A stretch of 33,793 nt of DNA from Bacillota bacterium (lineage in GTDB: Bacteria; Bacillota; Clostridia; Christensenellales; Pumilibacteraceae). How positions within the stretch are numbered: position 1 is the stretch's first letter; every line of letters starts with the position of its first letter. This document shows positions 1,561-33,793 of this stretch, piece after piece. The position numbers were made by a program, and so were the translations under genes. The stretch lies in assembly GCA_009783515.1 (NCBI GenBank), contig WRDI01000008.1:1-33793 (forward strand), read 5' to 3'. Below the pieces are notes generated by a model. The model had not been told where the DNA came from, ran no database searches, and was given only the letters and a program-made list of their open reading frames with translations.

Positions 1561-1650
1561 AGTTTACCCTTTATCCTTAATTTTATAGAAATTCCGGCGA
1601 TAATTTTGTCATCATAAAAAAAGGAATAGATTCTTCGCTTCGCTCAGAAT

Positions 1651-1744: not shown

Positions 1745-1782
1745 GACAAAGAAAGAGCAGTTAATGTCTTTTTATCAATCCA

Positions 1783-1819
1783 AAAAAGGCAAAAACCACG
1801 CTTTTTGGCTTTTTTGCCC
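1783..1819 (-). terminator. Intrinsic terminator downstream of the capsid gene
   Basis: Read on the minus strand, GGCAAAAA (from 1818 down) pairs with TTTTTGCC (to 1788), followed by a TTTTTT run at 1787-1782. A-tracts on the other side make it potentially bidirectional. Confidence 0.6.
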
Positions 1820-1826
1820 TTTTATC

Positions 1827-1855
1827 TCGACTTAAAAATGCAGTTTTTAAGTCGA
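1827..1855. terminator. 12-bp perfect stem-loop overlapping the capsid stop codon
   Basis: TCGACTTAAAAA at 1827-1838 pairs perfectly with 1844-1855 around a 5-base loop. The capsid TAA is inside the stem. No long U-run follows directly, so it may work together with the terminator at 1783-1819 or protect the mRNA 3' end. Confidence 0.55.
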
Positions 1856-2998
1856 AGCGGGAGCGGTAATACCGCTTATCTTTGCCTGACCGTTCGGTCT
1901 GTCGCAGATAAGGTCGCAATACTTAACAAGCGTCGCGCTATAGGTCGGCTTGCCCTGCGTCTGCCGCAAAATCTTGCCGTTTTCGGTTTCAAGGTACCGC
2001 CAGTCGCAAAGCTGGTGTAACTTAAACGCGCTCGTATCAAGCAAATACATCGTCCCATTCTCCACAAAACGATCATACACAAGCGGTATCCCGTTAAACG
2101 ACAATGTCCTAAAGCCGCCTGCAAGCTCCATCACGTCGATATTGCGCCTGTACTGCGACAGATAGTCCTGATAGGCGTACTTGACATCGGCTGAGCAAGC
2201 CAAAAAGTCGATGTTGCTACCTGTGTTAAGCTCCAGTTTATCAACTACCGTCTGTATTAACCTGTCCGAAATCGCCCCCGCGCTCGCTTGAATATGCGGG
2301 TTCAAAAAAGGATTGTTCGCCTTGGAAACACCGTAAATCGTCGTACCGTCGAATATCGCGCCAAGGCCGGTAATCTCCTTATCTCTGCTGCCCTGCACAT
2401 AAAGGGAATAGTTGTTCCCTATTGTTGGTGTGGTTGTAAAGGTAACTTTATTGTTTACCCTGTCCACCGAGGCTATCTTAAGGCCGGAGTTAGCTTTAGT
2501 GCTTCCGTTGTAAACATCGACCACCATGCCCTCCACAAGATTGCGTACCGAATCCATAACATAGGTCGCGCCCGTGGTTATGGTGCCCAATTTACCGGTG
2601 CCGTCCCCGAAAAGCATACGACCGAGGTTAAATTTACTGGCAGTCAATAAATCCTCTAACTCCGCAGTCAAAAGGTCGGTAAACGCGCCGCGTCCGTCCG
2701 CGCTCGCCCTTATCGCCTTGTCGCTTATTTCGATTTGGCCGTAAAGGTTTTTAAGCGTGCTGACAAACTGTAAATAGTTGGTCGAGTGCGCGGCGGGTAA
2801 ATCCCCCGTCTCGTCGCCCGCGCCTATGCCGCCGTTGATGCCGTACTTGACAGCCTTTCTGATTTCCTTGCCCCAGACGTCGGCCGAAGTCTGGCGGATT
2901 TTAGTCAACAAAGGATTTACCTTCGTATTAAGTAATTCGGTGACCGTTCCAAGGTACACCGTTTTTAGCGCGTTTTCCGCGTTCTGTAAAGTAACCAT
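1847..2998 (-). CDS. Phage major capsid protein (HK97-fold type)
   Basis: A 383-aa protein, the usual size for a phage coat protein. SD AAGGAG lies 9 bases before the ATG (MVTLQNAENALKTVYLG). The N-terminal helix is followed by an E-loop-like segment (GDETGDLP..STNYLQFVSTLKNLYGQIEISDKAIRAS), a beta-rich A-domain region (about 160-300, including SNIDFLACSADVKYAYQDYLSQ) and a C-terminal 'DRFVENGTMYLLDTSAFKLHQL' type segment typical of coat proteins whose last strands report on metal- or receptor-free shells. It follows portal and scaffold-like genes in the canonical head order. No frameshift or stop is seen, so the gene appears under selection. Host-type repeats flank both sides. Confidence 0.85.
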   Translation of the reverse strand: MVTLQNAENALKTVYLGTVTELLNTKVNPLLTKIRQTSADVWGKEIRKAVKYGINGGIGAGDETGDLPAAHSTNYLQFVSTLKNLYGQIEISDKAIRASADGRGAFTDLLTAELEDLLTASKFNLGRMLFGDGTGKLGTITTGATYVMDSVRNLVEGMVVDVYNGSTKANSGLKIASVDRVNNKVTFTTTPTIGNNYSLYVQGSRDKEITGLGAIFDGTTIYGVSKANNPFLNPHIQASAGAISDRLIQTVVDKLELNTGSNIDFLACSADVKYAYQDYLSQYRRNIDVMELAGGFRTLSFNGIPLVYDRFVENGTMYLLDTSAFKLHQLCDWRYLETENGKILRQTQGKPTYSATLVKYCDLICDRPNGQAKISGITAPAST

Positions 2999-3035
2999 TT
3001 TTTTGAATCTCCTTATAAAAAATTTTTTTGTTATT

Positions 3036-3236
3036 AATGCTCAATGCTCTTTCTTTAATGCTCAATGCTCAATGCTCAATGCTCAATGCTCAATGTCGGT
3101 CAAATCTATAAGAAAACTGACCTCTCAAATTCCCCTCCCTCGGAGGGGTGCCCCACGAACGCTTCCGTGGTAAGGGGCGGGGTGGTCCTAATTAACCCGA
3201 CCTTCATTGAGCATTGCACATTGAGCATTATGAATT
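3036..3236. repeat. Type-A heptamer element with a GC-rich element nested inside
   Basis: Left arm 3036-3095 is tandem GCTCAAT (five near-perfect units at 3057-3095) followed by CGGTCAAATCT. The right arm 3204-3231 is the complementary GAGCATT/GCACATT array. Between them, 3126-3186 is a complete GC-rich element (CCCCTCCCTCGGAGGGG hairpin, then a second stem ending GGGGCGGGGTGGT). The stop codon of the gene at 3228-3623 falls in the right arm. Confidence 0.8.
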
Positions 3237-3623
3237 GATAATCATCTCCGCCAGCCGTTTCGCCTCGGCTAAACTTCCCGGTTTTGCGGGCGGCGTGAGT
3301 GCACTTTTGCCCGTATCGCTCCGCAGCACATACGCACTTCCCTCGCGGGTTAGCGCCGTTAAGTAGTCGTCGATGACCTTGCGGCGAATGTCCTCCCTTG
3401 GTAAGACGTTGGCGGCGACAAATCCCTCGTTCGCCAGCGCCGTAACGGCATATTTATCGTACCGCTGATTATCGTTAAGGTCGGACTTTAACTGCCCGTT
3501 TTCCTTCTCAAACTCCTTCAGCTTTTGGCACCGCTTGCTAAACTCCGCCTCTAAACGTTCATATGCCTTCAATAAGCTCTCCGGCGAGTCGAATTTCCCT
3601 ATTCTTCTGCTAAGCTCGTTCAT
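3228..3623 (-). CDS. Phage scaffold-like protein
   Basis: A 131-aa, highly charged and mostly helical protein. Residues about 12-50 (SPESLLKAYERLEAEFSKRCQKLKEFEKENGQLKS) form a clear coiled coil. It starts at ATG behind GGGGG (7 bases) and lies directly between portal and capsid genes, where P22-like phages place the scaffolding protein. The 'SPESLLKAYERLEAEFSKR' opening is common in Clostridia phage scaffold-like proteins. It is shorter than P22 scaffold (about 300 aa) but of normal size for this group. The TAA stop is supplied by the adjoining A-type repeat. Confidence 0.6.
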   Translation of the reverse strand: MNELSRRIGKFDSPESLLKAYERLEAEFSKRCQKLKEFEKENGQLKSDLNDNQRYDKYAVTALANEGFVAANVLPREDIRRKVIDDYLTALTREGSAYVLRSDTGKSALTPPAKPGSLAEAKRLAEMIINS

Positions 3624-3654
3624 TGCAAACCCCCTTTAATTCCCTGTTCGTGTG

Positions 3655-3893
3655 AGAGAGTGGAGAGTGGAGTTTGGAGAGTGGAATTAAAGTTGCCGCA
3701 AAATCGTAGGGGCGACCATTGGTCGTCCGCAATGTCGTAGGGCGTGACGCCTCGGCGCGCCGCATAAAAAAATGACCGCTTAAAATTCCCCTCTCGAGGG
3801 GTGCCCCACGAAAATTCCCCTCCATCGGAGGGGTGCCCCACGAATGCTTCCCTGACAGGGGGCGGGGTGGTTCTTGCTTGGGGGCGGGGTGGC
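3655..3893. repeat. Composite repeat cluster between portal and scaffold genes
   Basis: Reading left to right: type-B heptamers (GTGGAGA at about 3657-3690), a GTAGGGGCGACC..GGTCGTCCG word (3706-3730), a GTAGGGCGTGACGCC word (3738-3756), then two consecutive GC-rich elements (3780-3810 and 3811-3893, each with a CCCCTC..GAGGGG stem). Open frames here are only translations of repeat DNA. Essentially the whole 294-base gap is repeat. Confidence 0.75.
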
Positions 3894-3917
3894 TGAAATC
3901 GGGTAACGCAGCAAAAC

Positions 3918-5582
3918 TCACTCATTCCTTTGCCCCCCTTCACCGCAAACACTAACCTCCTCCGCCAATGTACCAAACCCCAAAGCCTCCAACAGCTTCG
4001 CCCGCGTTCCCGCGCTCAAAACCCCGTTTTCCCCTTCAAACAGCCCCACCTTAAAAAGCTCAAGCAGCATCAACCGCCGGCTCTGCGCCCCGCCTTCAAA
4101 CTCGTTCTCGCTTTCTATCACGACGTCATCGCCGCATAAATCGCTACCAATAAAGCTCAAAAGCTCGACGCGCCCGCCGTCCCCGGCTACTCTCGACAAC
4201 CTCGGCTGTGACGCGAATTGTTTATACAGCCTAAGGATAAATTGCGCGAGTTTTTTGCCCGCCATGCGGATACGCTCGGCGGTCGCGGACAGGCGCGTGT
4301 CGTCCTGCTCGGTTAGCAACCTTATCGCCGCGCCGCTGCTTAAATTCCCCGGCAAAGCGGACGAGCGCATAATCTCGCTTATACCACTAATTAAGACAAA
4401 CTCATTCAAAAGCTTGTCTTCCTCGTCGGCAAACTCCGCGGGCACGCTGCCTGGATCAAGCAAAGCGGGCGGGGTACTCCCCTGCCGATAAACCAGGATT
4501 TTCCCGGGAGACAGTCCCTCGGTTTCAAGGTTTTCGGTGTCAACACTGCCGTCCTCCACCGCAAGTACCCCCATCGCTATACGATTCAAGAACTCGTGCT
4601 TGCGGTTTTTAACGGCGTTGTAAGCCCTTTGAACGGGAATCGCCCTCTCCACAATGCTGGCGCCGAAAAAGCAGCCCGCTACGGACAACGAATCCTGTTT
4701 TATAAAGGGCAGCGCGTAAGAGCCGTCCTCGCCCAGGCGGAAAGGGAGCGGCCCGTAATGCAAAAGCTTATTCCCCGCAACGACCGCAAATTCGCCGTCG
4801 GGATGATTTGCGCTCGGCGCGGAATAACGTTCGATTACCATCGTATGGCCGCCCGTTTTCCCTCGCCCGTGCTTAATCACAGCACCGGTCATGCCCATAC
4901 CGCCGCTCACTCCCGCGCTCGCCAAACTGACCGTGTCTACGTCCTCCGCGTCCACCATCGCGCCGTAAATGCGGAAGATATCGTCCACCGCGACGGCCTT
5001 TGCGTGGATTATGCTTTGGCAGTCCGATACGTCCTGATACGAAAGGCTGTCGGGAAAGATTTCGTAAGAGGGGCATACGTCAACCCTGACCTCGCCCTCG
5101 TGTACGGGGCTGCCCTCTAAAATCCCTACCTTTTTGCCCGCGCTTTTGTCCCAGCTGACCTTGTAAAAAACGCTACCGACGGTTTCCGACCACTGCGCGC
5201 CCTTTTGCATAAGCTCCTGCAAATTAAGCCTGTCAGAAGCGCTGCGCAGTATTTTTGTGGAGAGTTTGGCGGTTTTTGCGTCGCTCTCCTCGCTCCCCGC
5301 CGCTCTCACGGCCATAACGGGACGCACTCTATTAAGCTTGGCAAGGCGTGTCTCCACAATAAACGCGATATGGTTGAACACCTCGCGCTCCTGCCAATAA
5401 TAATCCTTGCCGCGATCCTCTAAGTTCCCCGCTAAGCTCACGGCGCAATACTGATTGCCGCTTAAAAAGTTGGAATTAAGCTGCCACTGCGCCTCGAAAT
5501 GCCTTCTTCCCTCTCGGCGCAAAAGGTAATCTTCCTTAACTTCCGCCACAAGGTCTTCGGCAAAATCTTTGTCGTATTTCAT
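3918..5582 (-). CDS. Phage portal protein, P22-type
   Basis: A 554-aa protein, normal portal length. I chose the ATG of MKYDKDFAEDL because TGGAGGT lies 6 bases upstream; an earlier in-frame Met has no SD. The N-terminus has the hallmark helical clamp region (YLLRREGRRHFEAQWQLNS..FLSGNQY..WQEREVFNHIAFIVETRLAKLNRVRP), followed by the wing/stem region (VGSVFYKVSWDK, VDVCPSYEIFPD, CQSIIHAKA) and a crown-proximal helix (LISGISEIMRSSALPGNLSSGAAIRLLTEQDDTRLSAT). Portals form the dodecameric DNA entry ring of the procapsid and dock the terminase. It is followed by scaffold and capsid genes on the same strand. No inactivating lesion is seen. Confidence 0.85.
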   Translation of the reverse strand: MKYDKDFAEDLVAEVKEDYLLRREGRRHFEAQWQLNSNFLSGNQYCAVSLAGNLEDRGKDYYWQEREVFNHIAFIVETRLAKLNRVRPVMAVRAAGSEESDAKTAKLSTKILRSASDRLNLQELMQKGAQWSETVGSVFYKVSWDKSAGKKVGILEGSPVHEGEVRVDVCPSYEIFPDSLSYQDVSDCQSIIHAKAVAVDDIFRIYGAMVDAEDVDTVSLASAGVSGGMGMTGAVIKHGRGKTGGHTMVIERYSAPSANHPDGEFAVVAGNKLLHYGPLPFRLGEDGSYALPFIKQDSLSVAGCFFGASIVERAIPVQRAYNAVKNRKHEFLNRIAMGVLAVEDGSVDTENLETEGLSPGKILVYRQGSTPPALLDPGSVPAEFADEEDKLLNEFVLISGISEIMRSSALPGNLSSGAAIRLLTEQDDTRLSATAERIRMAGKKLAQFILRLYKQFASQPRLSRVAGDGGRVELLSFIGSDLCGDDVVIESENEFEGGAQSRRLMLLELFKVGLFEGENGVLSAGTRAKLLEALGFGTLAEEVSVCGEGGQRNE

Positions 5583-5619
5583 TTTTACCTCCATTTTTTA
5601 TTGTTTATCTCTCATTTTT

Positions 5620-5845
5620 AGGTATCAGGTAAGGCCAAAATTAATTTCAAAGCCAACCGCTCAAAATTCCTCCCTCTTGAGGGGGGCGGAGCGTTAAGCA
5701 AATATGCCTGCGGCTTACGAAGTAAGGCCCCAAAACGCTTCATGGCACGGTTTTATGTTTGTATCGGAGCCATGAACGCTTCCCATTCCCCTCCCTCGGA
5801 GGGGTGGAGCGTAGCGCCGGGGTGGTTAGGGGGCGGGGGGGTTAT
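5620..5845. repeat. Repeat-filled gap with two GC-rich elements
   Basis: It begins with an ATCAGGTA (type-G) word at about 5621-5633. A GC-rich element (CCTCCCTCTTGAGGGGGGCGGAGCG) follows at 5664-5692, then CTTACGAAGTAAGGCCCCAA and GGCACGG words that recur inside the dnaE insertion. A second element (CCCCTCCCTCGGAGGGGTGGAGC) lies at 5787-5842. No gene is seen between 5583 and 5868. Confidence 0.65.
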
Positions 5846-5868
5846 AAATATCAAATCCGATCTACCCT

Positions 5869-6075
5869 CTACCCTTTCTCCCCCTGCTTTCTCACCGTCT
5901 CTATACTCCTCGGCACAAGCGGTTCCCCCAAAATCGCGTACAACTCCGCCAAACACGCCTTGCAAATGTGTATTTTGCTCCTTATCCCCGACCTGCTAAG
6001 ATTCACGGTATAGGCCGCTTTTTTGCCGCATTTGTTTACTTCGCATTTTTCTCTTTCATTCTGCGTAAGATACAT
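5869..6075 (-). CDS. Small zinc-finger-like protein of the phage module
   Basis: A 68-aa protein. The start MYLTQNERE is chosen because AAAGGAGG sits 6 bases before the ATG, whereas the longer frame upstream runs through a terminator. Two cysteine pairs (CEVNKC and, about 30 residues later, CKAC) predict a structural zinc site. It lies between a small phage gene and the portal gene. Function is unknown; an accessory DNA-binding or packaging role would fit but is not shown. Confidence 0.55.
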   Translation of the reverse strand: MYLTQNEREKCEVNKCGKKAAYTVNLSRSGIRSKIHICKACLAELYAILGEPLVPRSIETVRKQGEKG

Positions 6076-6105
6076 TTCCTTCCTCCTTTCTTCTTTTTTG
6101 TCACC

Positions 6106-6132
6106 AAAAAACCCCAAAACTCCGTTTTGAGG
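6106..6132 (-). terminator. Intrinsic terminator upstream of the zinc-finger gene
   Basis: On the minus strand CCTCAAAAC (6132-6124) pairs with GTTTTGGGG (6120-6112, one G-U), then TTTTTT at 6111-6106. It lies about 30 bases before the start at 6075, so it can separate or attenuate transcription between the gene at 6313-6573 and the zinc-finger/portal genes. Confidence 0.65.
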
Positions 6133-6312
6133 CTTTTTATGTTTGTCTTTATATTTGAAACTGATTTCTATACTCCGTCTTACGAAATCAGTCATATCGT
6201 CGTAAGAAGGGATGAATCGTTTCGTCTTTTTGTATTAATTCATGGGAGTTTTTTCCAAAGATATGCATCTCCATTCTCTAAACCCCAAACCTCAACTCCA
6301 CTCTCCACTTTT

Positions 6313-6573
6313 TTAATCCCTTGCCCCACTCAACATACCAAGCAGCCTTGCCCTCTCCTCCTTAAGCTCCTCGTCGCTCATCCCCTCGTATGGGTCGACG
6401 GGCAACTGCTCCATCAATAACTTTGCGGCGGCAAGGCAGGGCGGCACCTTTTTCACGGTCTTTTTTTGTTTTTTCAAAATCCCTTCGCCGTCCCATTCCT
6501 CCGCATGCTCAGTGGCGGTATACCCCAGTGCACGCTTAAGTACCGCCCTTAACAGTTTTTCCTTATCGTCCAT
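6313..6573 (-). CDS. Small phage protein, possibly terminase small-subunit-like
   Basis: An 86-aa protein starting MDDKEKLLRAVLKRALGY behind GGAGG; the upstream in-frame extension lacks an SD. The pattern 'KRALGYTATEH..KKVPPCLAAAKLLMEQL' and an acidic helical tail (MSDEELKEERARLLGMLSG) resembles small proteins found beside terminases in Bacillota phages, some annotated as terminase small subunits. I see no definite DNA-binding helix-turn-helix, so this remains tentative. It lies between terL and portal on the same strand. Transcription from the minus-strand promoter at about 7.1 kb would reach it after crossing the antisense of the tRNA-Ser genes. Confidence 0.45.
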   Translation of the reverse strand: MDDKEKLLRAVLKRALGYTATEHAEEWDGEGILKKQKKTVKKVPPCLAAAKLLMEQLPVDPYEGMSDEELKEERARLLGMLSGARD

Positions 6574-6665
6574 CCGCCCTCCGCCAAAAATGTGTGAAAA
6601 AACGATTTTAATGTCCGACTTTATGTAAATTACAAATTTTGCCCCGCTCGACACGCTTAAAACCA

Positions 6666-6694
6666 TTGCAAATTCCGAAAAAATATGCTATAAT
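6666..6694 (+). promoter_or_regulatory. Sigma-A promoter for the tRNA-Ser genes
   Basis: TTGCAA at 6666-6671, 17-base spacer, TATAAT at 6689-6694 with an extended -10 TG. The predicted start is near 6701, about 42 bases before the first tRNA. A 9-bp stem (6703-6711 with 6724-6732) follows in the leader. Confidence 0.8.
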
Positions 6695-6742
6695 TACGGC
6701 GTACTCAAATAGAATGGGCGTTTTATTTGAGTTCACACAAGT

Positions 6743-6831
6743 GGAGAGGTATCGAAGCGGTCATAACGGGGCTGACTCGAAATCAGTTTGTGGGCAACCA
6801 CACGGGGGTTCGAATCCCCCCCTCTCCGCCA
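6743..6831 (+). tRNA. tRNA-Ser (anticodon CGA)
   Basis: Acceptor stem GGAGAGG/CCTCTCC with encoded CCA. The anticodon stem GCTGA/TCAGT encloses the loop CTCGAAA (CGA, reads UCG). A long class II variable arm is followed by the T-arm GGGGGTTCGAATCCCCC. Encoded on the strand opposite the phage genes. Confidence 0.95.
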
Positions 6832-6906
6832 CAAGGCTTGCGTCGCAGCCTTGCATGAACAAATTTGCATATTATCATGCAAGGTCGGCAAACAAGCCCG
6901 CTCTTT

Positions 6907-6997
6907 GGAGAGATGGTTGAGCGGCTGAAGGCACACGCTTGGAAAGCGTGCATACGTTAAACGCGTATCGGGGGTTCGAATCCCCCTCTCTCCGCCA
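6907..6997 (+). tRNA. tRNA-Ser (anticodon GGA)
   Basis: Acceptor stem GGAGAGA/TCTCTCC with encoded CCA. The anticodon stem CACGC/GCGTG encloses the loop TTGGAAA (GGA, reads UCC/UCU). It has a class II variable arm and a standard T-arm. It lies 75 bases after the first tRNA-Ser, presumably in one transcript ended by the terminator at 7006. Confidence 0.95.
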
Positions 6998-7005
6998 GCA
7001 AAAGT

Positions 7006-7042
7006 AAGACCTGAACCCTCGACGGACACGGGTCTTTTTTTT
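7006..7042 (+). terminator. Terminator after the tRNA-Ser pair
   Basis: AAGACC (7006-7011) pairs with GGTCTT (7031-7036), followed by a run of eight T to 7042. The loop is rather large (19 bases) but the position just after the second tRNA fits. Confidence 0.6.
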
Positions 7043-7107
7043 GTGAGTTTTTTTGATTTTCTTTTTTAGTCGGTTCCTGTCGGCGCGTCTTCACCGCTCT
7101 CAAACGT

Positions 7108-7148
7108 ATTATATCACACTAATATTGACACCTGTATGTCAACATTAG
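7108..7148 (-). promoter_or_regulatory. Conserved promoter/operator, copy 1 (towards the phage head module)
   Basis: On the minus strand: TTGACA-N6-TGTCAA (7142-7125) within a longer CTAAT..ATTAG palindrome (7119-7148), then 11 bases and TATAAT (7113-7108). A second conserved block (GTGAAAAAAATTTCAC, 7176-7161) lies 19 bases upstream. Copies 2 and 3 have the same spacings. A proper -35 at 17 bases is absent, which suggests a regulator-controlled promoter. Transcription would run leftward into the phage genes. Confidence 0.65.
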
Positions 7149-7190
7149 CAGATTTGCATTGTGAAATTTTTTTCACTGTTTCAATTCCGC

Positions 7191-7220
7191 TTGTAAATAC
7201 ATAAAAATATGTGCTACAAT
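7191..7220 (+). promoter_or_regulatory. Promoter of the small membrane-protein gene
   Basis: TTGTAA at 7191-7196, 18-base spacer ending TGTGC, TACAAT at 7215-7220. The start is expected near 7227, giving a short leader with SD AAGGAG before the ATG at 7251. It is divergent from the conserved operator at 7108-7148. Confidence 0.65.
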
Positions 7221-7250
7221 CATGACAGCTTCAAATTATAAGGAGCAAAC

Positions 7251-7496
7251 ATGGAAATAGCGAGTTTAATTTTTGGCATTTTTGGACTATTATTTGGTTT
7301 TGGTGGATTTTTCGTTGGGTTACGCGCTTGGATTTGGGCAAAAAAGAACAACGACGAAATCAAGCAATTAAAGCTCACATTAGAAAAAAGAGAAAAAGAA
7401 ATCCGAGAAGTAAAAGAGTGGATTGGCGGAGAAATTATCGAAGGAAAGACTGCAAAAGAACACGGGATAAATTTCCTTGAAAATGGAGAAATGTAA
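7251..7496 (+). CDS. Small membrane-anchored coiled-coil protein
   Basis: An 81-aa protein with SD AAGGAG and ATG. Residues 3-28 (IASLIFGIFGLLFGFGGFFVGLRAW, glycine- and phenylalanine-rich) form one transmembrane helix. Residues 31-58 (KKNNDEIKQLKLTLEKREKEIREV) form a charged coiled coil, then comes a short polar tail. The topology recalls phage holin-like or DUF-type small membrane proteins, but no family is certain. It is the only protein gene on this strand inside the phage block, lies divergent from operator copy 1 and has its own promoter. Confidence 0.65.
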   Translation: MEIASLIFGIFGLLFGFGGFFVGLRAWIWAKKNNDEIKQLKLTLEKREKEIREVKEWIGGEIIEGKTAKEHGINFLENGEM

Positions 7497-7514
7497 CACC
7501 TTTCCTCAAATTTG

Positions 7515-7716
7515 ACCTTAAAAGCGTTGCGAGGGGGTGTCCAGAGGGAGCGCGAGGCGGCGGACGAAGTCCGCAAAAACAGTCCTGTGGACTGTTTTTA
7601 GCACGAGCGGCCGAAAGTGTTCCCCCTCTGGTGCCCTTTTGGACACTTTTGGAATGCCCCAAAAGTGCCATAATAAATGCACACATTCGGTGTGCCGAGG
7701 GCGTCGCGCCCTACGA
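7515..7716. repeat. REP-like hairpin cluster between two genes
   Basis: It starts with AAGCGTTGCGAGG, a word also found at 25256. A perfect 10-bp stem (AAAAACAGTC 7575-7584 with 7590-7599) is flanked by an outer imperfect inverted repeat (GTCCAGAGGGA..CCCTCTGG). It ends with the palindromic GAGGGCGTCGCGCCCTACGA word (about 7697-7716), which also occurs near 25.45 kb. No gene is seen. Confidence 0.6.
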
Positions 7717-9162
7717 TTACCCCCTCAACCCCTTTAACTTCCTCGCCAGTCTCTGCTTATCCCTCTGAATCTCACTCAAAACCGCCGGCGGCTTAAACGG
7801 CTCGGGCCGCGACATGATGTAATACCGCAGCTCGTCAAGGGCGTGGTCGTCCCGTTTCTTGGGAACGTCGCCCTCCCCCCACCAATACGTCTTGAATTCC
7901 CGAATCAAATTTACGCAGGTGTCAAAAATATACAGCCTCTCCCGCACTCCGCCGAGATACTGCTTGACCCTATTAATCCCGCTAAACAAATCCTTGTCCA
8001 CGTTAGTGTTGACCTGAATCCCGTGGTCCAAAAACAACTCTACCACACTTCTTTCGCTCGCCAAAGTCCTTTGCGAAGCCGCGCTGTCAATCAACGCGTT
8101 AAGCCGTCCAAAGTTGTCCGTATGCCACCCGAGTGCCCGCGACTTATCCTTAATCACCCCCGCGTGATACGCGACGCTCTGCCCCGCCCGATAATGCTCC
8201 TCAATTACATAAATATTGTCGTCGCCGTCGACGGCGTACCAGTGGCAGGACAGCGGATTATTCAGTCCGGGGTCAATCGACATCGTATCAAACCACGCAC
8301 GCGGCACGGCAAACGGCGGGATAACATGGACCGCGGGGTCAAATTCAGGATAAACCAGTCCCCGCCCGCCCACAAACCGCCCGTACCGCCGCTGCTCAAG
8401 TTGCTCGCGACTTAACGCCGCGCTAATCCGTTCCACCTCCGCGCTGTCAAGATAGGGGTTGTCCGCCCACTCCATGGCGATTGTCCACGTCTCGTCGTTC
8501 GCCTCCTCGTTCAAAAAAATGCGGTTATACACAAACGTCAGGCCTTTAAGCGGCGTCATGGTACCGAAAATCTCACCCTTTGTGTCCAAAACCCTCATGC
8601 GGCACTCGTCGTATACCTCCTCGGGCGGCTCCTCGTCAAACCACACAAAATCAAGACTCGCCCCCTGAAACTTCTCCCGCCCCATCTCCGCGCTCTTGAA
8701 CACAATTTTGCTTACACCGCCCGAGGCGTGCTTGACCAGAATATAGTCGATTACGCCCCCAGCGGGGAAGCTGCTTTTGCCGCTGTTCATCACAATACTA
8801 TGAATCCAGTCGGGATTGAGGTAATGCAAAATCTTGCTTTGCGCCACCTCGCGCGACACGGCGAGGGTGGGGCTGACCACCCACCCCGTCATGGGCTTTT
8901 TATTGTCACGATACGGGTGAATCCCCCTCGCCAGCCACACGCTTTCGGCGGCGCCGCACTCCGTTTTGCCGCTGCGGTTCCCCCCGAACACCCACCTGTT
9001 TCTTTTCAGGCACTTATGAAACTCCATTTGTTTAAGGTGGACAATTTCACCCGTATTATAATGCAAAAGCCTATTTTTCGCCTTCCTCTCCGCCTGCTTT
9101 TTCTCAATCAGCCGTAATTTGGCGATTATTTCCTTATCCGTCATAACTTTGTTTTTGGGCAT
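7717..9162 (-). CDS. terL: Phage terminase large subunit
   Basis: About 481 aa. The packaging ATPase and nuclease motor. Walker A is at about residue 60 (GGNRSGKTE), Walker B at about 172-178 (FVWFDEE), with the coupling-like motif GTMTPLKGLTF after it. The nuclease domain begins at FDTMSIDPGL (about 292) and carries LIDSAAS and a terminal DDHALDELRY acidic motif. All expected acidic residues are present, so both activities look intact. I prefer the inner start (MPKNKVMTDKEIIAK; GAGGGAAAG upstream). A duplicated start (MPKNKVMTDKEI) lies 33 codons upstream in frame at 9261 with its own SD, produced by a 51-bp duplication around a GC-rich element. It directly follows the dual-OB-like gene on the same strand. 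Confidence 0.9.
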   Translation of the reverse strand: MPKNKVMTDKEIIAKLRLIEKKQAERKAKNRLLHYNTGEIVHLKQMEFHKCLKRNRWVFGGNRSGKTECGAAESVWLARGIHPYRDNKKPMTGWVVSPTLAVSREVAQSKILHYLNPDWIHSIVMNSGKSSFPAGGVIDYILVKHASGGVSKIVFKSAEMGREKFQGASLDFVWFDEEPPEEVYDECRMRVLDTKGEIFGTMTPLKGLTFVYNRIFLNEEANDETWTIAMEWADNPYLDSAEVERISAALSREQLEQRRYGRFVGGRGLVYPEFDPAVHVIPPFAVPRAWFDTMSIDPGLNNPLSCHWYAVDGDDNIYVIEEHYRAGQSVAYHAGVIKDKSRALGWHTDNFGRLNALIDSAASQRTLASERSVVELFLDHGIQVNTNVDKDLFSGINRVKQYLGGVRERLYIFDTCVNLIREFKTYWWGEGDVPKKRDDHALDELRYYIMSRPEPFKPPAVLSEIQRDKQRLARKLKGLRG

Positions 9163-9275
9163 ACACTTTCCCTCGCAAAAAATTCCCCTCCCCCGGAGGG
9201 GTGCCCCAAAGGGGCGGGGTGGTTTTATTTCCTTATCCGTCATAACTTTGTTTTTGGGCATAAACTTTTCCTCGC
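9126..9275. repeat. 51-bp direct repeat flanking a GC-rich element at the terL start
   Basis: Copies 9126-9176 and 9225-9275 match at 49 of 51 bases and each contains a complete SD plus ATG for terL. The 48 bases between (9177-9224) are a GC-rich element (CCCCTCCCCCGGAGGGG stem, then GGGGCGGGGTGGTT) of the family dispersed through this window. Confidence 0.9.
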
Positions 9276-9298
9276 CTTTTGATAAATCGGGATTTATT

Positions 9299-9934
9299 TT
9301 ATAATTCCCTTGTAAAAATCTTAGCCGCAAATTTATAATACAAGTCGTTTTCGCCATAAGGCTCACAAGGTATACTCACGATTAAAATCGCCTTTTTTAG
9401 CTTAAATTTATCCAATTCTTCCTTGCGAAAATCCGGGTCTGTTAGGCAAATCGTATATTCGTTTCCCATATATATAAAAGACACTTTATGATGATGTCTG
9501 CCGTCGCCTTTAAGCGAAGTGTCGAAAACAATATCAAAAACCTCGACCGCGAGCAACGAATGGTTTAACCTTTTTACGTCGTCAGCCGTTAATTCCGCTT
9601 TATCGTTTGCAAAGATAAATTGCGGAGTATCAATTTTTCGGATCCTCAAAACCTCGCTCATAGTTAAGCGACCCTGCCCTATAATCGGCGCATCAACGTC
9701 AAGAAGCCAATTTTCCGTTTGACATTTTTGCGGAATGTGTTCTATCAAATTGACGGCGACAACGTCCAAAACATTGATAGGGTTTTTCTTATCGTCAAAT
9801 AATTCCTTAGAAACCGCCTCGCCGCTTTTTGAGCTTACAAGCCGTATCCATTTACCCGTGCCGACGTCAATTCCCGCCACACAATAAGCCCTATCCTTAA
9901 CCGATTTGGTTAATATGCAAATTTTCTTTACCAT
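9299..9934 (-). CDS. Dual OB-fold-like protein
   Basis: A 211-aa protein with SD GAGGAG and ATG. The N-terminus (KKICILTKSVKDRAYCVAGIDVGTGKWIRLVSSKSGEAVSKEL) and the later VLDVVAVNLIEHIPQKCQTENWLLD pattern match, in my recollection, the dual OB-containing domain proteins often encoded beside DUF488 genes. The C-terminal half (HHHKVSFIYMGNEYTICLTDPDFR) is again beta-rich. OB folds usually bind nucleic acid; no catalytic motif is visible. The DUF488 gene lies just upstream on the same strand, with a terminator between, and terL lies downstream. A joint nucleic-acid-related or defence-type role is inference. Confidence 0.6.
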   Translation of the reverse strand: MVKKICILTKSVKDRAYCVAGIDVGTGKWIRLVSSKSGEAVSKELFDDKKNPINVLDVVAVNLIEHIPQKCQTENWLLDVDAPIIGQGRLTMSEVLRIRKIDTPQFIFANDKAELTADDVKRLNHSLLAVEVFDIVFDTSLKGDGRHHHKVSFIYMGNEYTICLTDPDFRKEELDKFKLKKAILIVSIPCEPYGENDLYYKFAAKIFTREL

Positions 9935-17094: not shown

Positions 17095-18414
17095 TTAACC
17101 CTTTTTCACCCCTCTTTCGCCCCTGCAGTGCGCCCGCAAAACGCCGCTGTCATAGGCAAACGTCAATTTTTGTTTCTTCTCATACTCCCTTACTGCGATT
17201 TCCAATAGTTTATCCACCAAAAGTGGAAAGCCCATCCCGTCAAAAGCGAACAAATACGAGGACAGCGACCCCGGCACGGTATTGATTTCGTTAATAAAAA
17301 GCTCACCGTCCTTAATCAAAAAATCCACCCTCGCCACCCCCGCGCACCCGATTAGCTCAAACGCTTTTTTGGCGGCGGCGCGCACATCGCGGCTCATTTC
17401 GGGCGAAATACGCGCGGGCAGGTATCGACCGGTGTCGCCTTTGCTGCAAGAGTGAGGAGTGGGGAGTGGGGAGTGGGGAGTTAAGGTTGAGTTTGGAGTT
17501 TGGAGTTTGGAGTTTGGAGTTGTGGTCAAATTTGATTGAGTATTTTTGACTTTTTCTAATTCCAACCTTAACTCTCCACTCTCCACTCCCCACTCCCCAC
17601 TCCCCACTCCCCACTCTCCACTTCCCAATTTCCACTCCCCGCTCCCCACTCCCCCGTATTTATTCTCAAAGCTCAAAAAACCACTCGAAACCGGCTGCTC
17701 GACCTCCGACACAACAACATTATACCCACTCCCCAAGACGGCGCAGTTGACCTCGATAAAATCGGTCAAGGCGTTCTCCACAATCACCTTATCGTCCCAC
17801 ATAAACGCCTCGTCCAGTCGCAAAAAAAATTCCTTAAAATCATGCGCCCGCCCTATTCCGATACTGCTCCCCCCCCTCGCCGGCTTAACCATTAGCGGAA
17901 ACGTCAGTTTTTCCTTAACCGCCGCCACCGCGTCGAAAAACCCGTCTTCCAATTCGTGCTTATTAATCCCGATAAACGGCGTCACATTAAGCTCTTCGTG
18001 CTCGAACAGCCTTTTTTGCACGGTTTTGTCCATCCCGACCGCTCCCGCAAGCACCCCGCCGTTGGCGCAAGGAACGCCGCTTAATTCAAGTAGCCCCGCC
18101 AGGCACCCGTCCTCGCCGCCCCTGCCATGACAGCAGTTTATGACGGCGTCCAAGGTCGCAAGCCGCCGCCCCCGCTTTGTATACACCCCACGGTCCGCCG
18201 GACAAAGATGGATTTTTTTCTTTTTATACCCCTTCTCAAGAAAAACGGCGACGCTGTCAAAGCCCCGCCCCGTGTACCACTGTCCCGCTCCGTCTATGTA
18301 AACGGGCGTCACCTTGTGCCCCGCCGCCTTCGCCGCGTTCACCGTCATAACGCCCGTAATTATACTTATATCATGCTCGCACGACCGCCCGCCAAAAAAA
18401 ACGCCGATTCTCAT
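17095..18414 (-). CDS. ddl: D-alanine-D-alanine ligase with an in-frame repeat insertion
   Basis: 439 aa, against about 350-370 usual. ATG of MRIGVFFGGRSCEHDIS with GGAGGAG upstream; a 59-codon open extension further up only translates a type-A repeat. ATP-grasp hallmarks: HGRGGEDGCLAGLLELSGVP, GMDKTVQKRLFE, PLMVKPARGGSSIGIGRA, VIVENAL.., DFLIKDGELFINEINTVPG (metal-binding Glu/Asn and catalytic loop). Residues about 255-322 are a low-complexity insertion of GSGEWGV- and TPHSPLP-type heptapeptides encoded by CTCCACT heptamer arms (17447-17652), between SFENKYGG and GDTGRYLPARIS, near the flexible substrate loop. It forms the D-Ala-D-Ala dipeptide for peptidoglycan. It lies downstream of glmM on the same strand. 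Confidence 0.85.
   Translation of the reverse strand: MRIGVFFGGRSCEHDISIITGVMTVNAAKAAGHKVTPVYIDGAGQWYTGRGFDSVAVFLEKGYKKKKIHLCPADRGVYTKRGRRLATLDAVINCCHGRGGEDGCLAGLLELSGVPCANGGVLAGAVGMDKTVQKRLFEHEELNVTPFIGINKHELEDGFFDAVAAVKEKLTFPLMVKPARGGSSIGIGRAHDFKEFFLRLDEAFMWDDKVIVENALTDFIEVNCAVLGSGYNVVVSEVEQPVSSGFLSFENKYGGVGSGEWKLGSGEWGVGSGEWGVESGELRLELEKVKNTQSNLTTTPNSKLQTPNSTLTPHSPLPTPHSCSKGDTGRYLPARISPEMSRDVRAAAKKAFELIGCAGVARVDFLIKDGELFINEINTVPGSLSSYLFAFDGMGFPLLVDKLLEIAVREYEKKQKLTFAYDSGVLRAHCRGERGVKKG
17447..17652. repeat. Type-B heptamer inverted repeat inside ddl
   Basis: GTGGGGA/GTTTGGA heptamers (17458-17523) face CTCCACT/CCCCACT heptamers (17566-17652). The centre contains GTGGTCAAATTTGATTG, the recurring core. 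The element keeps the ddl reading frame open. Confidence 0.9.
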
Positions 18415-18469: not shown

Positions 18470-18602
18470 TTAATGCGCAATGCGCAATGCTCAATGAAGG
18501 ATAATTTTAAGAATGCACAATGGAACAGCGCACAATGAAGGATACGATAAATATTAAATTTGACCGACATTGAGCATTGAGCATTGCGCATTGCGCATTA
18601 TT
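18470..18602. repeat. Type-A heptamer element between glmM and ddl
   Basis: Left arm GCGCAAT/GCTCAAT (18471-18498); right arm complementary (18568-18600). The centre carries GAAGGATAATTTTAAG and ATTAAATTTGACCGAC. It can fold into a long hairpin in the intercistronic region of the glmM-ddl transcript. Confidence 0.85.
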
Positions 18603-18604
18603 CA

Positions 18605-19900
18605 CTATGTATTTTGTTCATCAACTATCGTCTTAAACCTCTCCAAAAACCTATCCACCAACCCCTCGTCCTCATCCTCCGCCATAATCCGAATCTTTGG
18701 TTCCGTCCCGCTGAGGCGCACTAACACGCGCGATAAAACCCCCTCCGCCTCGCGCGTAAGAGCCCTCAGACGCGAACTTTGCATAATTCCACATCGGCAG
18801 GGTAGCGAAACGGTCTTTTGCGGCACTAATCGCAGCCGCTCAATCTCCCCCCTCAGCCCCGCCATTTTGACCGCCGCCAAAAGCCCGTCCCCCGTCGTCC
18901 GCTCAGGATACAAAATGTAATGCCCGCTCTGCTCGCCGCCCAAACCGCATTTTTTTCTCAGCATAAGTTCCAAAATATGCTTATCCCCCACGTTGGCGGC
19001 AAAAAACGCCTTTCTGTCCGCCTCGACCCGCCTTTTAAGCGCAAGGTTGCTCATCACCGTGCCTACTACCCCGCCTTCCCTATGACGGCTTAGCGCATAC
19101 AAAACCGAGTCCCCGTCCAAAATCTCGTCGCCAAACACCATAACCATTCTGTCCGCATCCCCGTCAAAAGCAAAGCCGTTGTTCAATTCACAATGCTCAA
19201 CGCACTGAAAATTCCCCTTCATCGCTTCCAAAAGCCTCTCCGCATACAACGCCCCGCAATCCACATTTATCATGTTGCCGTCCCCGCCCTCGTTCAAACA
19301 CACGACGGACGCTCCAAGGCGGGTAAAAACCTCCCGCGCAATACTTCCCTGTCCATCATCCAAGACAAACGCACCCGCCGCGCCAAACCCGCAATCCAGC
19401 CACACCTTCTCCCCGTCCAGCCGCTGCGACCCCAAAACAATGTCGTTTATGTAAATCTCCGCGGCGCCGCGCATTTTCGACACCCACCCCCTCGCATCCG
19501 CCGCAACCAAATCGGGGTTGTCGATATAAAATTCGACGGCTTCCTCCTCTTTCGCGCTTAATTTTGCGCCCCCCCGCCCAAACAACTTCAGCCCGTTATA
19601 CTCCGGAGGGTTGTGCGACGCGCTCACCATCACGCCCCCCGCAGCCCGCCTCTTTTTGACTAATAACGCCAGCGCGGGCGTAGGCACGATCCCCACCGTC
19701 AGCGCGTTTCCCCCAGCCGAGTTTAATCCCGCGACAAACGCGTCCAAAAGTGAGGCGCCGCTCACCCTTGTGTCCTGTCCCGCTATACAAACGCCGCAAA
19801 ACAGAAACCCAAAAGCCGCCCCCGCCTTATATGCCAAAGCCTCGGTCATCCCTTGACCGTAGACCCCTCTTATTCCGTCCGTGCCAAAGTATTTTCTCAA
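18605..19900 (-). CDS. glmM: Phosphoglucosamine mutase
   Basis: 431 aa, slightly short for GlmM (about 445-450). The start is TTG with GGAGG 4-7 bases upstream, opening RKYFGTDGIRG. The active-site loop MVSASHNPPEYNGLK places the phosphoserine at about residue 95. The metal loop is FAFDGDADR, the sugar loop GGEQSGHYI, and the C-terminal phosphate-binding loop VRLSGTEPKIR. It converts glucosamine-6-P to glucosamine-1-P for UDP-GlcNAc synthesis. Just before the metal loop, EAMKGNFQCVEHCELNNG is encoded partly by a single A-type repeat unit (about 19186-19206), a small probable insertion. It shares a consensus promoter (20131-20103) with ddl and lies divergent to glmS, giving a compact cell-wall precursor locus. 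Confidence 0.92.
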   Translation of the reverse strand: MRKYFGTDGIRGVYGQGMTEALAYKAGAAFGFLFCGVCIAGQDTRVSGASLLDAFVAGLNSAGGNALTVGIVPTPALALLVKKRRAAGGVMVSASHNPPEYNGLKLFGRGGAKLSAKEEEAVEFYIDNPDLVAADARGWVSKMRGAAEIYINDIVLGSQRLDGEKVWLDCGFGAAGAFVLDDGQGSIAREVFTRLGASVVCLNEGGDGNMINVDCGALYAERLLEAMKGNFQCVEHCELNNGFAFDGDADRMVMVFGDEILDGDSVLYALSRHREGGVVGTVMSNLALKRRVEADRKAFFAANVGDKHILELMLRKKCGLGGEQSGHYILYPERTTGDGLLAAVKMAGLRGEIERLRLVPQKTVSLPCRCGIMQSSRLRALTREAEGVLSRVLVRLSGTEPKIRIMAEDEDEGLVDRFLERFKTIVDEQNT

Positions 19901-20375: not shown

Positions 20376-22340
20376 ATGTGCGGTATAGTCGGCTTTTGTG
20401 GCCCTGAAGACGCCCTGCCGTACCTTTTAGACGGCCTAAACAAACTTGAATACCGCGGCTACGACTCGGCTGGAGTGGCAGTGGCAAACGACGGCAAGCT
20501 GACTTCTGTCAAGACCAAGGGACGTATCGCCAACCTGACTAAATTGGTCGAGCACGGCATAAAGGGCGGTACGGGTATAGGCCACACCCGCTGGGCGACC
20601 CATGGCGCGCCCTCGGGCAGCAACGCCCACCCACATATGTCCCGCAGCGGCAAATTTGCGGTCGTTCACAACGGTATAATCGAAAATTACCAGGAAATTA
20701 AAACTTTCCTCATTGACCGCAGCTTTTCCTTCGCCAGCGAGACGGACACGGAGGTCATCGGCCACCTCATAGATTACTACTACCGCGGAGACCCCGTGGA
20801 CGCCATAATCAAGGCGGCATGGCGCCTACACGGCTCGTACGCCCTCGCGATTTTGTGCGCGGACTCTCCCGACCGTCTTTTCGCCACGCGCAAAGAAAGC
20901 CCGCTCGTATTGGGCACCTCGCAAAAGGGTACGTTTTTGGCGTCCGACATGTCCGCTCTCTTATCCTACACCCGTGACTTTATCGTCCCCGAAGCGGGCG
21001 AGGTAGCGATTTTAACCCGCGACGAGGTAAAGGTACTGAATTTCAACCGCGAGAAAGTGGAGAAAAAGAGTATCCGCGCCGACTGGAAAGAAGATTCCGC
21101 CCAAATGCAGGGCTACAGCCACTTTATGCTTAAAGAAATCTATGAGCAACCCCGCGCAGTCCGCGACACGCTTTGCGAACTGGGGCGGCGTATTGACACC
21201 CTCGACACCCTTAAAGGCATCGAAAGGTTGCATATTGTGGCGTGCGGCTCGGCATACCACGCGGCTTTGGCGGCAAAATATTTTATTGAAAAGCTGTGCC
21301 GTATTCCCGTAGAATGCGAAACGGCGAGCGAATACCGCTACAAAAACCCTATTATCCCGTCTAATACGCTGGCGATTGCGGTCAGCCAAAGCGGCGAAAC
21401 TGCTGACACCATCGCGGCGATTAACGAGGCGAAAAAGCGTGCAAAGGTTTTGTCGGTGGTCAACGTCCCCGGCAGCACGATCGCAAGGATTTCCGACGAG
21501 GTGATTTACACGCTTGCGGGGCCGGAGATAGCGGTCGCGACCACCAAGGGATATATTTGTCAAGTGGCGGCATTGTATGCTGTCGGATTGCATTTGCAAC
21601 TGAAAAGAATGCTCAATGCTTGGTGCTCAATGCTTGGTGACGGTCATATTTTAAAAGAGGGGCATCACAATGAGGGGTATCCAAAAAATTCCCTTCTTGA
21701 GGGGTGCCCGCAAACACTCCCTGCTTGGTGCGGAGTAGCTGAAGCAGGGCATAGTGCACAGTGCACAGCGCACAGTGAAGGTCAAATTTATCAACCCCAA
21801 ACCTTAACTTCACTCTCAGCTCTCCACTCTTCACTCTCCACTCTCCCCAACGACATCGCCTCCCTCTTAGAAAAAAAAGAAACATTCCAACAGCTTTCTT
21901 CCCGCTTCTCATTCATCAATTCCGCGTTTTTTATCGGCCGCGGCATAGACTATGCCGTCGCTATGGAGGGCGCGCTAAAACTTAAGGAAATCAGCTATAT
22001 CAACGCGCAAAGCTACCCCGCCGGCGAACTTAAACACGGGACAATTTCCCTCATCGAAGAAGGCACGCTGGTTGTGGCGGTGGCAACCGATCCCGCCCTA
22101 TATGAAAAAATCATAAGCAACATCCGCGAGGTGCAGTCCCGCGGCGCGGTGGTATTGGCGATAACAAGCGGCGACAGCGTGGCGGCTGCGGCAGATTTCT
22201 ACGCGCGCATCCCGGAGGGTATCAACGCCCCGCTTTTGTCCGTCGTCAGTCTGCAATTATTCGCCTACTACACCGCCCTCGCCCGCGGCTGCGACATCGA
22301 CAAGCCGCGGAACTTGGCAAAGTCCGTGACTGTTGAGTAA
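20376..22340 (+). CDS. glmS: Glucosamine-6-phosphate synthase with an in-frame repeat insertion
   Basis: 654 aa, against about 600 usual. SD CAGGAGG 6 bases before ATG. The N-terminal glutaminase has Cys2 nucleophile (MCGIVGF), GHTRWATHGAPS and SETDTEVIGHL. The first SIS domain has VACGSAYHAAL and VSQSGETADT; the second has FFIGRGIDYAVAMEGALKLKEISY and AGELKHGTISL; the C-terminal KSVTVE is the isomerase end. It makes glucosamine-6-P from fructose-6-P and glutamine. Between the SIS domains (residues about 411-490) sits MLNAWCSML.., a GC-rich-element piece (NSLLEGCPQTLP), AQCTAHSEGQIY and TSLSALHSSLSTLP. All of it is encoded by repeat words in frame, adding about 55 residues to the linker. No glmS ribozyme is recognisable upstream. 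Confidence 0.92.
   Translation: MCGIVGFCGPEDALPYLLDGLNKLEYRGYDSAGVAVANDGKLTSVKTKGRIANLTKLVEHGIKGGTGIGHTRWATHGAPSGSNAHPHMSRSGKFAVVHNGIIENYQEIKTFLIDRSFSFASETDTEVIGHLIDYYYRGDPVDAIIKAAWRLHGSYALAILCADSPDRLFATRKESPLVLGTSQKGTFLASDMSALLSYTRDFIVPEAGEVAILTRDEVKVLNFNREKVEKKSIRADWKEDSAQMQGYSHFMLKEIYEQPRAVRDTLCELGRRIDTLDTLKGIERLHIVACGSAYHAALAAKYFIEKLCRIPVECETASEYRYKNPIIPSNTLAIAVSQSGETADTIAAINEAKKRAKVLSVVNVPGSTIARISDEVIYTLAGPEIAVATTKGYICQVAALYAVGLHLQLKRMLNAWCSMLGDGHILKEGHHNEGYPKNSLLEGCPQTLPAWCGVAEAGHSAQCTAHSEGQIYQPQTLTSLSALHSSLSTLPNDIASLLEKKETFQQLSSRFSFINSAFFIGRGIDYAVAMEGALKLKEISYINAQSYPAGELKHGTISLIEEGTLVVAVATDPALYEKIISNIREVQSRGAVVLAITSGDSVAAAADFYARIPEGINAPLLSVVSLQLFAYYTALARGCDIDKPRNLAKSVTVE
21607..21850. 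repeat. Composite repeat inserted in glmS
   Basis: Left to right: GCTCAAT/GCTTGGT heptamers (21609-21640), a partial GC-rich element (AAATTCCC..GAGGGGTGCCC, 21687-21715), GTGCACA/GCGCACA units then GAAGGTCAAATTTAT (about 21752-21792), and CTCCACT/TTCACTC heptamers (21805-21848). It is the same set of modules as the intergenic elements. Confidence 0.88.
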
Positions 22341-32242: not shown

Positions 32243-32369
32243 GCACCATGCACAATGCTCAATGCTCAATTAAGGACAAATTTAAGGAATGTACCATGAG
32301 TGTTAAGCATTGATACGCTCAAAAAAAAACGCGACCATCATTGAGCATTGCGCATTGCGCATTAAGCAT
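32243..32369. repeat. Type-A heptamer element between dnaE and pfkA
   Basis: Left arm GCACAAT/GCTCAAT (32247-32270), core TAAGGACAAATTTAAGG, right arm GAGCATT/GCGCATT (32338-32369). It is intercistronic in the dnaE-pfkA direction. Confidence 0.85.
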
Positions 32370-32374
32370 TTTTC

Positions 32375-33793
32375 TTACTCACTAATCCTCACGTCCCTCA
32401 CGCAAGTATACCCCATCAACTCGTTTTTCAGCATATCGCACACGTCCGCGCCCACACCGTCCAATAAATTTATGACCTTCTTTTCCCCCTCGTTATAGCT
32501 GACGTAGATTTCGTCGCCGCCGGGATACTCTTGCAAAAGCTCCTTAATTTCGGGTAAAGAACCCAAAATCGCGTCCTTGCCGTAAAAATAAATACACATT
32601 TTTTTCTTTTTTACGACAGTACCCGTGTCCCACGCCTCGATTTTGTCCACCCAGACGGTAGCCGCGCCCTCGTCCCGCGTATTCACTCGCCCGTGAATCG
32701 TCACCATGCGGTCGTTTTGCCAAATCCCCCGATAGCGTGCCAGTTTATCAGAACTGATCATGATTTCCGCCGAGCCGACCAAGTCCTCGATAAGCGCGGT
32801 TCCTATTTCCTTACCCGCCTTGGTGTACTTAACCGCCGCGTTTTGCAGCATCCCGCCCAAGGTCACGGAGGAGGGCGGCTCCTCGTCGGGGCTAAAAACG
32901 GCAGTGGTGTGCGGCAATTCTCTTAATTTTTCCGCAAACGCCATCAAGGGATGTCCCGACAGGTACACTCCGGCCACCGTTTTCTCCATTTTCAGCTTTT
33001 CAGCCAAAGAATATTCGGGATAGGGTTTAAGCGAAAGCGCGGAGGGGGCGGACACGAAAGCCATGTCGAAAAACGACATCTGACCGGAGAGGGCGGCGGC
33101 CGCGTCCTTCCTAACGCTGTCAAGCACACTCTCATAGCCGTTTATCAGCGTACTGCGGTTGACCCCTAAACTATCAAACGCCCCGGAATAAATCAAGCTT
33201 TCGAGTAGCTTTTTATTAAGCGCGTTTTTGCCGTCCTTTTGTAAGGCGGCGTTCATCCTCTTTACAAAATCCTCGAAGCTTTTAAAAAGCCCGCCCGTTT
33301 CTCTTTCCTTAACGATAAGCGACACCACGGCGGCACCTACGTTTTTGAGGGCGGCAAAGCCTACACGCACACTCCCGCAGGAGTGGGAAGTGGGGAGTGG
33401 GAAGTGAGAAGTTATAGTAGAATTTGATTTTAAATTTTCGACCGTACTTGATACCTGATACCTGCTACGAAGCAAGCCCCCGAACTCTTCTTGGCACGGG
33501 CTTATACCTGATACCTGACCCCTAATCGCTCCACACTCTCCACTCCTCACTCCCAACTCCCCAAACTCCACAGAAAACTCCACCTCCGACCTGTTAATAT
33601 CGGGTAACAGCACCTCTATTCCGTTCTCCTTAAGGTACATCAAATAATTCGCTATCTCATCAATCCTCGCGATACGGTTATTCAAAACGGCAGTGATAAA
33701 CTCCACCTTGTAATACCGCTTTAAAAACGCCGTTTGGTAGGCCAAAAACGCATAAGCGGCGGCGTGCGACTTATTAAACGCATAATTGGCAAA
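32375..33793 (-). CDS. dnaE: DNA polymerase III alpha subunit, C-terminal part (5' end outside window)
   Basis: 472 codons visible. They open with FANYAFNKSHAAAYAFLAYQTAFLKRYY, the conserved finger-domain end of DnaE. Then come LLPDINRSEVEFSVE, GFAALKNVGAAVVSLIVKERE (helix-hairpin-helix region), FDSLGVNRSTLINGYES, a stretch around YLSGHPLMAF, and an OB-type module (VTLGGMLQNAAVKYTKAGKEI..VTIHGRVNTRDE). It is the replicative polymerase catalytic subunit. About 65 residues between VEFGELG and CGSVRVGFAALKN are encoded by nested repeats (33376-33573) in frame; other DnaE proteins pass directly from this strand to the next. Confidence 0.93.
   Translation of the reverse strand, partial: FANYAFNKSHAAAYAFLAYQTAFLKRYYKVEFITAVLNNRIARIDEIANYLMYLKENGIEVLLPDINRSEVEFSVEFGELGVRSGECGAIRGQVSGISPCQEEFGGLLRSRYQVSSTVENLKSNSTITSHFPLPTSHSCGSVRVGFAALKNVGAAVVSLIVKERETGGLFKSFEDFVKRMNAALQKDGKNALNKKLLESLIYSGAFDSLGVNRSTLINGYESVLDSVRKDAAAALSGQMSFFDMAFVSAPSALSLKPYPEYSLAEKLKMEKTVAGVYLSGHPLMAFAEKLRELPHTTAVFSPDEEPPSSVTLGGMLQNAAVKYTKAGKEIGTALIEDLVGSAEIMISSDKLARYRGIWQNDRMVTIHGRVNTRDEGAATVWVDKIEAWDTGTVVKKKKMCIYFYGKDAILGSLPEIKELLQEYPGGDEIYVSYNEGEKKVINLLDGVGADVCDMLKNELMGYTCVRDVRISE
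33376..33573. repeat. Nested type-B/type-G repeat inside dnaE
   Basis: Outer GTGGGAA/GTGGGGA heptamers (33383-33410) face CTCCACT/CTCCTCA heptamers (33530-33562). Inside lie a core like AAATTTTCGACCGTAC (33432-33446) and two ACCTGAT arrays (33452-33466, 33507-33521) flanking GCTACGAAGCAAGCCCCCGA and GGCACGGGCT words also seen near 5.7 kb. Confidence 0.88.

Follow-up and report, generated by a model that had tools for sequence, protein, structure and literature searches.

Results

The window analyzed here is the whole stretch of 33,793 nucleotides of a contig from a clostridial genome (G000). On its reverse strand it carries ddl (17098-18414), identified by translation, profile matches, and PDB homologues as the gene for a D-alanine–D-alanine ligase of 439 aa, insert included. 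The frame is open for 439 codons, and about 68 of these run through a palindromic heptamer element of ~207 bp on the same strand (17448-17654, nested array included), delimited by sequence, TRF, inverted repeat, alignment, and fold. A sequence-only reading had proposed a heptamer insert in frame in ddl at 17447-17652. Its presence was confirmed by the sequence, by TRF arrays at 17450-17481, 17489-17521, and 17571-17654, by an inverted repeat of 40 nt and 93% complementarity (17450-17489 and 17563-17602), by the open frame, and by the profiles that match on either side. As RNA, the insert is predicted to fold into a hairpin of -106 kcal/mol (z = -7.55 compared with shuffles).

One arm of the ddl element (17450-17489, from inverted repeat I1) reads (GAGTGGG)n GAGT TA AGGTTG and terminates in a subterminal motif of the ARTG-NN-GGTT type. 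At 17489-17521 lies a nested GAGTTTG array of the AGTTTGG type (100% matches in TRF) followed by GTGGTCAAATTT, the end of a second element within the first. The other arm, defined by TRF and the inverted repeat, is CAACCTTAACTC(TCCACTC/CCCACTC)n at 17563-17654. The sequence CTCCACTCTCCACT occurs three times in the window and 0 times in 100 shuffles. The unit CTCCACT, on which the first description was based, does occur, but it is a minority variant, the commonest unit being CTCCCCA/GAGTGGG. Likewise, the heptapeptides GSGEWGV and TPHSPLP are the translation of CTCCCCA, whereas CTCCACT encodes SGEWRVE and LHSPLST. Computation bore out the proposal that a heptamer repeat yields the identical heptapeptide in all three frames, with the restriction that this applies per strand.

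The insert separates two conserved parts of the enzyme. The NCBIfam and Pfam Ddl matches form two stretches flanking it, the matches of Ddl in relatives are split in the same way (about 1-255 and 325-430), and the Ddl homologues in the PDB match residues 1-253 and 331-412, skipping the insert. We ran the alignment with related Ddl proteins that had been suggested as a check and found that all 29 aligned family members are without an insert at this site. The site is bracketed by the invariant Lys252-Tyr253 and Pro333-Ala334 and falls in a loop that varies in length among relatives, probably the omega loop closing over the active site; the family-invariant residues are retained on either side. 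This placement rests on alignments because the single-sequence AlphaFold model of Ddl was poor (pLDDT 34.5) and was not used. Sharing of the insert by orthologues as a conserved domain had been named as a refuting observation; the orthologues looked at lack it, and it is therefore not an ordinary conserved domain. The Ddl of another family genome, G016, has its own heptamer-derived insert at a different position in the protein.

Two further genes in the window carry in-frame mosaic inserts. In glmS (20376-22340, forward strand), which matches NCBIfam PRK00331/TIGR01135 in two stretches, the first reaching residue ~411, several repeats make up the insert at 21608-21849 (forward strand): an AATGCTC-type end, a GGGGTGCCC repeat, an AGTGCAC end with AAGGTCAAATTT, and a CACTCTC array (TRF 21610-21639 and 21811-21846). 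The 3' part of dnaE (32375-33793, reverse strand; NCBIfam DNA polymerase III alpha) runs off the contig and contains, at 33382-33590 on the same strand, an AGTTTGG/AGTGGGG-type array, AGGTATC arrays with CGGTCGAAAATTT, and an inverted CACTTCC array (TRF 33380-33406). Repeat, TRF, and motif searches found four more elements. An AATGCTC-type element with both arms (1107-1237) overlaps the start region of a small ORF and otherwise lies between genes; an AATGCGC/AATGCTC-type element (18472-18606) is intergenic, immediately upstream of ddl; an AATGCAC/AATGCTC-type element (32243-32370) occupies the gap between a phosphofructokinase-like gene and dnaE; and an AATGCTC-type element with a long left array (3055-3222; TRF; inward ends 3078-3101 and 3199-3222) lies in the phage-like part of the window. 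This part (535-9366) holds genes that are terminase-, portal-, and capsid-like by eye, with several heptamer elements between or near them. The window also contains a perfect 47-bp tandem duplication (1651-1744) and, at 3782-3844 and 21670-21720, a second palindromic repeat family of the GGGGTGCCC type, with peptides like HPAPPPRPLSGKPSWGTPQEGNEEAFVGTPPREGN. Elsewhere this family lies inside genes of L103, L107, L120, and L093, and its repeats are found in frame in PriA, PheT, an AddB-like protein, GlmS, and others.

Across the genome, the elements typically follow a common plan: (ARTGNNN)~4-ARTG-NN-GG[TA][CT], an A/T-rich stretch, a short center, and an inverted copy, together capable of forming a long hairpin. 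The most frequent size is 120-135 bp. Neighboring arrays no more than 300 bp apart face inward in 67 of 74 pairs and outward in one. Array length is narrow, with three to four units in 209 of 231 arrays, and GG[TA][CT] stands within 10 nt of 151 of the 231, exactly 2 nt beyond the last ARTG in 142 of these 151, leaving about 80 arrays without the motif; these counts are to be read with a detection minimum of three units and a unit pattern, ARKKNNN, that preselects the first four positions. In AATGCKC, the class met most often, 38 aligned copies share a center of ~60 nt. Other heptamer classes are built on the same plan, among them AGTGGGG, AGTGACC, AGGGGTC, AGGTATC, and AATTACA. Of 65 elements, 60 have arms of the same heptamer class, compared with a shuffled mean of 49, and 0 of 5000 shuffles reached 60. 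Units are more alike within an array than between arrays, and elements are found nested within other copies. A separate subfamily of AATGC elements (L131:6455-6626, L107:11857-12028, and L127:8000-8304) is distinguished by a second subterminal variant, in which CAATTACGTTGTAAAATT replaces CAATGAAGGTCAAATT.

The survey of G000 covered 1.16 Mb of the 1.49-Mb assembly (~78%), itself 86% complete, and found about 186 heptamer elements. Period-7 arrays numbered 194 in the 1.16 Mb; the counts for periods 5, 6, 8, 9, and 10 were 0, 1, 0, 7, and 0. ARTGNNN arrays were present in 23 of 74 family genomes, with 364 hits in G000, 220 in G032, 105 in G020, and 44 in G007, and this search found none in G001, a genome of the same genus. 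The end motif was found with other heptamers in G032 (33 hits), G020, G007, G016, G028, G004, G062, and G070, and reversed-pattern controls gave 0-1 hits. Arrays occurred in 52 of the 398 genomes sampled from the phylum as a whole. The richest of the distant ones, G258 (211 array hits) and G386, have about 200 ARTGNNN array hits each without GG[TA][CT]; because the motif is absent we did not count them as the same element, and their repeat may be a separate heptamer system. The exact AATGCTC end had no match in viral contigs. The suggestion that the repeat could be an assembly artefact is unlikely, because the same pattern recurs across several genomes and a large number of genes, and because the termini of the stretches read show no excess of arrays.

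In-frame copies occur in at least sixteen genes of G000, whose products are conserved and, in the main, essential. Profile-verified hosts are Ddl, GlmS, DnaE, TsaD, MurG, UvrC, PheT, PriA, TopA, and WhiA, and further profile-checked ones are AddA-like and AddB-like proteins, an AMP-binding enzyme, a GHMP kinase (IspE-like), a ferredoxin-type protein, and a tocopherol-cyclase-like protein. The AddB-like frame (L120:2-3163) contains three separate heptamer elements and a repeat of the second family. The AddA-like helicase frame (L118:8457-12278) has a whole GNAT acetyltransferase domain beside an AGGTATC array, between two helicase domains. In relatives, the hosts include GpmI, MnmA, RsmA, GltX, MnmE, and an amidohydrolase. 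Searching NCBIfam and Pfam with the insert peptides returned nothing significant.

The list of in-ORF copies was compiled by seeking open frames, so that its in-frame excess is biased; only four cases come from a frame-blind search. In this comparison with relatives, the four clean intragenic cases (Ddl, MurG, PriA, and GlmS) each have an insert that is a multiple of three, with flanks in one frame. Freedom from stop codons had been put forward, together with the frame-independent heptapeptide, as what makes the heptamer unusually tolerable inside genes. The stop-codon argument holds only in part, since 8264 of the 16384 possible heptamers are stop-free in six frames, yet its direction is supported: AATGCTC, the commonest heptamer type of G000, carries a stop in some frame, and elements of the AATGCKC type, with a stop in one arm, never occur in verified genes of this genome (0 of 108, compared with 18 of 78 for other types; P = 4.5e-8). 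AATGC-type arrays are nonetheless found within genes in G007 (L208) and in L223, read in the stop-free direction, which fits the same explanation. The property does not extend from the arms to the whole element. The center of the ddl element contains stops, and the element is open in two of six frames, both on the ddl strand and one of them the ddl frame; it is the center, not the arms, that determines which frames are open.

Discussion

We consider it likely that the ddl insert represents a mobile repeat, short, palindromic, and non-autonomous, that resembles Rickettsia palindromic elements (RPEs) and is translated as a tolerated loop. The first description had already drawn a likeness in principle to RPEs as a tolerated in-frame insert; this holds, and more broadly than could be seen at ddl, in many genes and several genomes. 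The lineage-specific presence, conserved plan, nesting, and dispersal of the element support its insertion as a whole. Once inserted, the element would be transcribed and translated within the host protein and would add a flexible loop that the enzyme tolerates, in Ddl between the KY and PA motifs. Selection would purge copies that break the frame or carry stops, which would then persist only between genes.

One alternative is that polymerase slippage built up these arrays where they stand as ordinary simple-sequence repeats, heptamers being favored by the polymerase footprint and no mobile element being involved. Heptameric repeats are over-represented in many bacteria, for which slippage has been proposed (PMC4692102), and the greater likeness of units within than between arrays is what slippage would produce. 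However, slippage leaves unexplained the inward orientation of 67 of 74 pairs, the size of about four units, the spacing of GG[TA][CT], and the ~60-nt center common to 38 copies, and we regard it as very unlikely.

Just as improbable is that the elements are REPINs moved by a RAYT of the Y1 family, in which case the tetranucleotide accompanying the two inverted REPs would be GG[TA][CT]. The size and inverted-pair layout are comparable, and Y1_Tnp genes of RAYT-like length (251-270 aa) are present in the heptamer-rich G032, G020, G016, and G028. Against this, the one Y1 trace in G000 (assembly 86% complete) is a relic with different GTAGGGGC repeats at its borders, not a full gene; G258, with 211 array hits though without the GG motif, yielded no Y1 gene; the heptamer-free G233, G288, and G338 have RAYT-length genes; and Y1 genes are not specifically bordered by heptamer arrays. 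The Y1 relic of G000 (L071:6955-7521) is bordered and interrupted by REP-like GTAGGGGCGACCATTGGTCGCCC repeats encoding the in-frame peptide GTVGATIGRPP.

The least credible alternative, to which we give hardly any weight, is that the insert is lost from the transcript or the protein, in the manner of an intron or intein, or is skipped by ribosome bypass, to give a protein without it: long hairpins in conserved genes do resemble bypass elements and the ddl insert folds strongly, but removal needs neither an open frame nor a length in threes, both of which are kept in 4 of 4 clean frame-blind cases, the stop-bearing heptamer type is excluded from genes, Rfam finds only tRNAs in the window, and the inserts have no intron or intein match in NCBIfam or Pfam.

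If the ddl insert is a copy of a mobile repeat, its movement would require a trans-acting factor that acts on the hairpin ends. A multicopy ORF search in ~78% of G000 found no transposase-like family and no related autonomous transposon. As candidate autonomous copies we considered two heptamer-bounded stretches of 4.3 kb and 1.7 kb and rejected them, as what they hold are housekeeping genes, namely carB-dapF-like, two-component-system, and rimO-like ones (names by eye). A reverse transcriptase was likewise set aside as the mobilizer, RVT_1 not having been found in G000, G020, G007, G016, and G028. Direct repeats in the flanks were as frequent as in shuffled pairs, with no target-site duplication above chance. 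Because the two arms agree in heptamer class, we infer copying between hairpin arms, and the common heptamer on both arms is probably maintained by template switching between the paired arms. A bolder and rather doubtful idea is that the terminal arrays are rewritten on movement, the scaffold (ARTG every 7 nt, about four units, GG[TA][CT]) staying fixed while the three free bases of the heptamer vary from lineage to lineage and are reset together at both ends. Such a joint reset would imply a repeat-making or arm-copying step within movement and, if true, a steady supply of new loops in essential bacterial enzymes.

Among known systems, the closest in behavior are the RPEs, hairpin repeats of 105-146 bp that lie between genes and in frame in conserved protein genes, whose target-site duplication is uncertain; for the RPE-bearing enzyme Gmk, translation and activity have been demonstrated (PMC2229807; PMC10969869). 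The elements described here share with them a short palindrome with a long hairpin and in-frame copies in many unrelated conserved genes. They differ in a distant host group and in ends that are heptamer arrays of many types, which the cited texts do not describe for RPEs. No homology appeared at the protein-model level, at which the insert peptides have no NCBIfam or Pfam match. On this protein-level comparison, we class the heptamer element as working like an RPE and not as a member of the group. Like MITEs, it has terminal inverted repeats, is short, and contains no coding gene, but the target-site duplication typical of MITEs was not found.

Heptamer repeats themselves have precedents. In Xanthomonas, GGGAATC heptamers form convergent pairs able to fold into stem-loops, with 70 cases in Xcc, but one heptamer was studied per genome, mainly intergenic, and the study reports no general link to mobile elements (PMC4692102); the present elements combine many heptamer types with a single scaffold and lie inside essential genes. 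The cyanobacterial STRR and the TAACTGA repeat of Beggiatoaceae are likewise genome-wide 7-bp repeats of patchy distribution but are described as direct repeats, not as paired hairpin arms, and TAACTGA, with stops in one direction, lies mostly at gene ends in its Beggiatoaceae genome (PMC4679880). Correia/NEMIS elements of Neisseria obey the same stop-codon logic, the stop-free subtype being fused inside genes and the subtype with stops in all frames not (PMC2229807), but they have TA ends and target-site duplications and no heptamer arrays. No element that unites a constant end scaffold with interchangeable heptamers and also invades essential genes in frame turned up in the open-access literature searched.

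Invasion of essential genes by in-frame palindromic repeats has so far been discussed mainly for Rickettsia. The same phenomenon is met here in several genera of an unrelated family, clostridial by gene content, brought about by an element that appears to change its end sequence while keeping its geometry. Gene callers and assemblers may mistake such genes for errors. They also amount to a natural collection of essential enzymes with new loops, in which tolerated insertion can be tested outside an obligate intracellular parasite.
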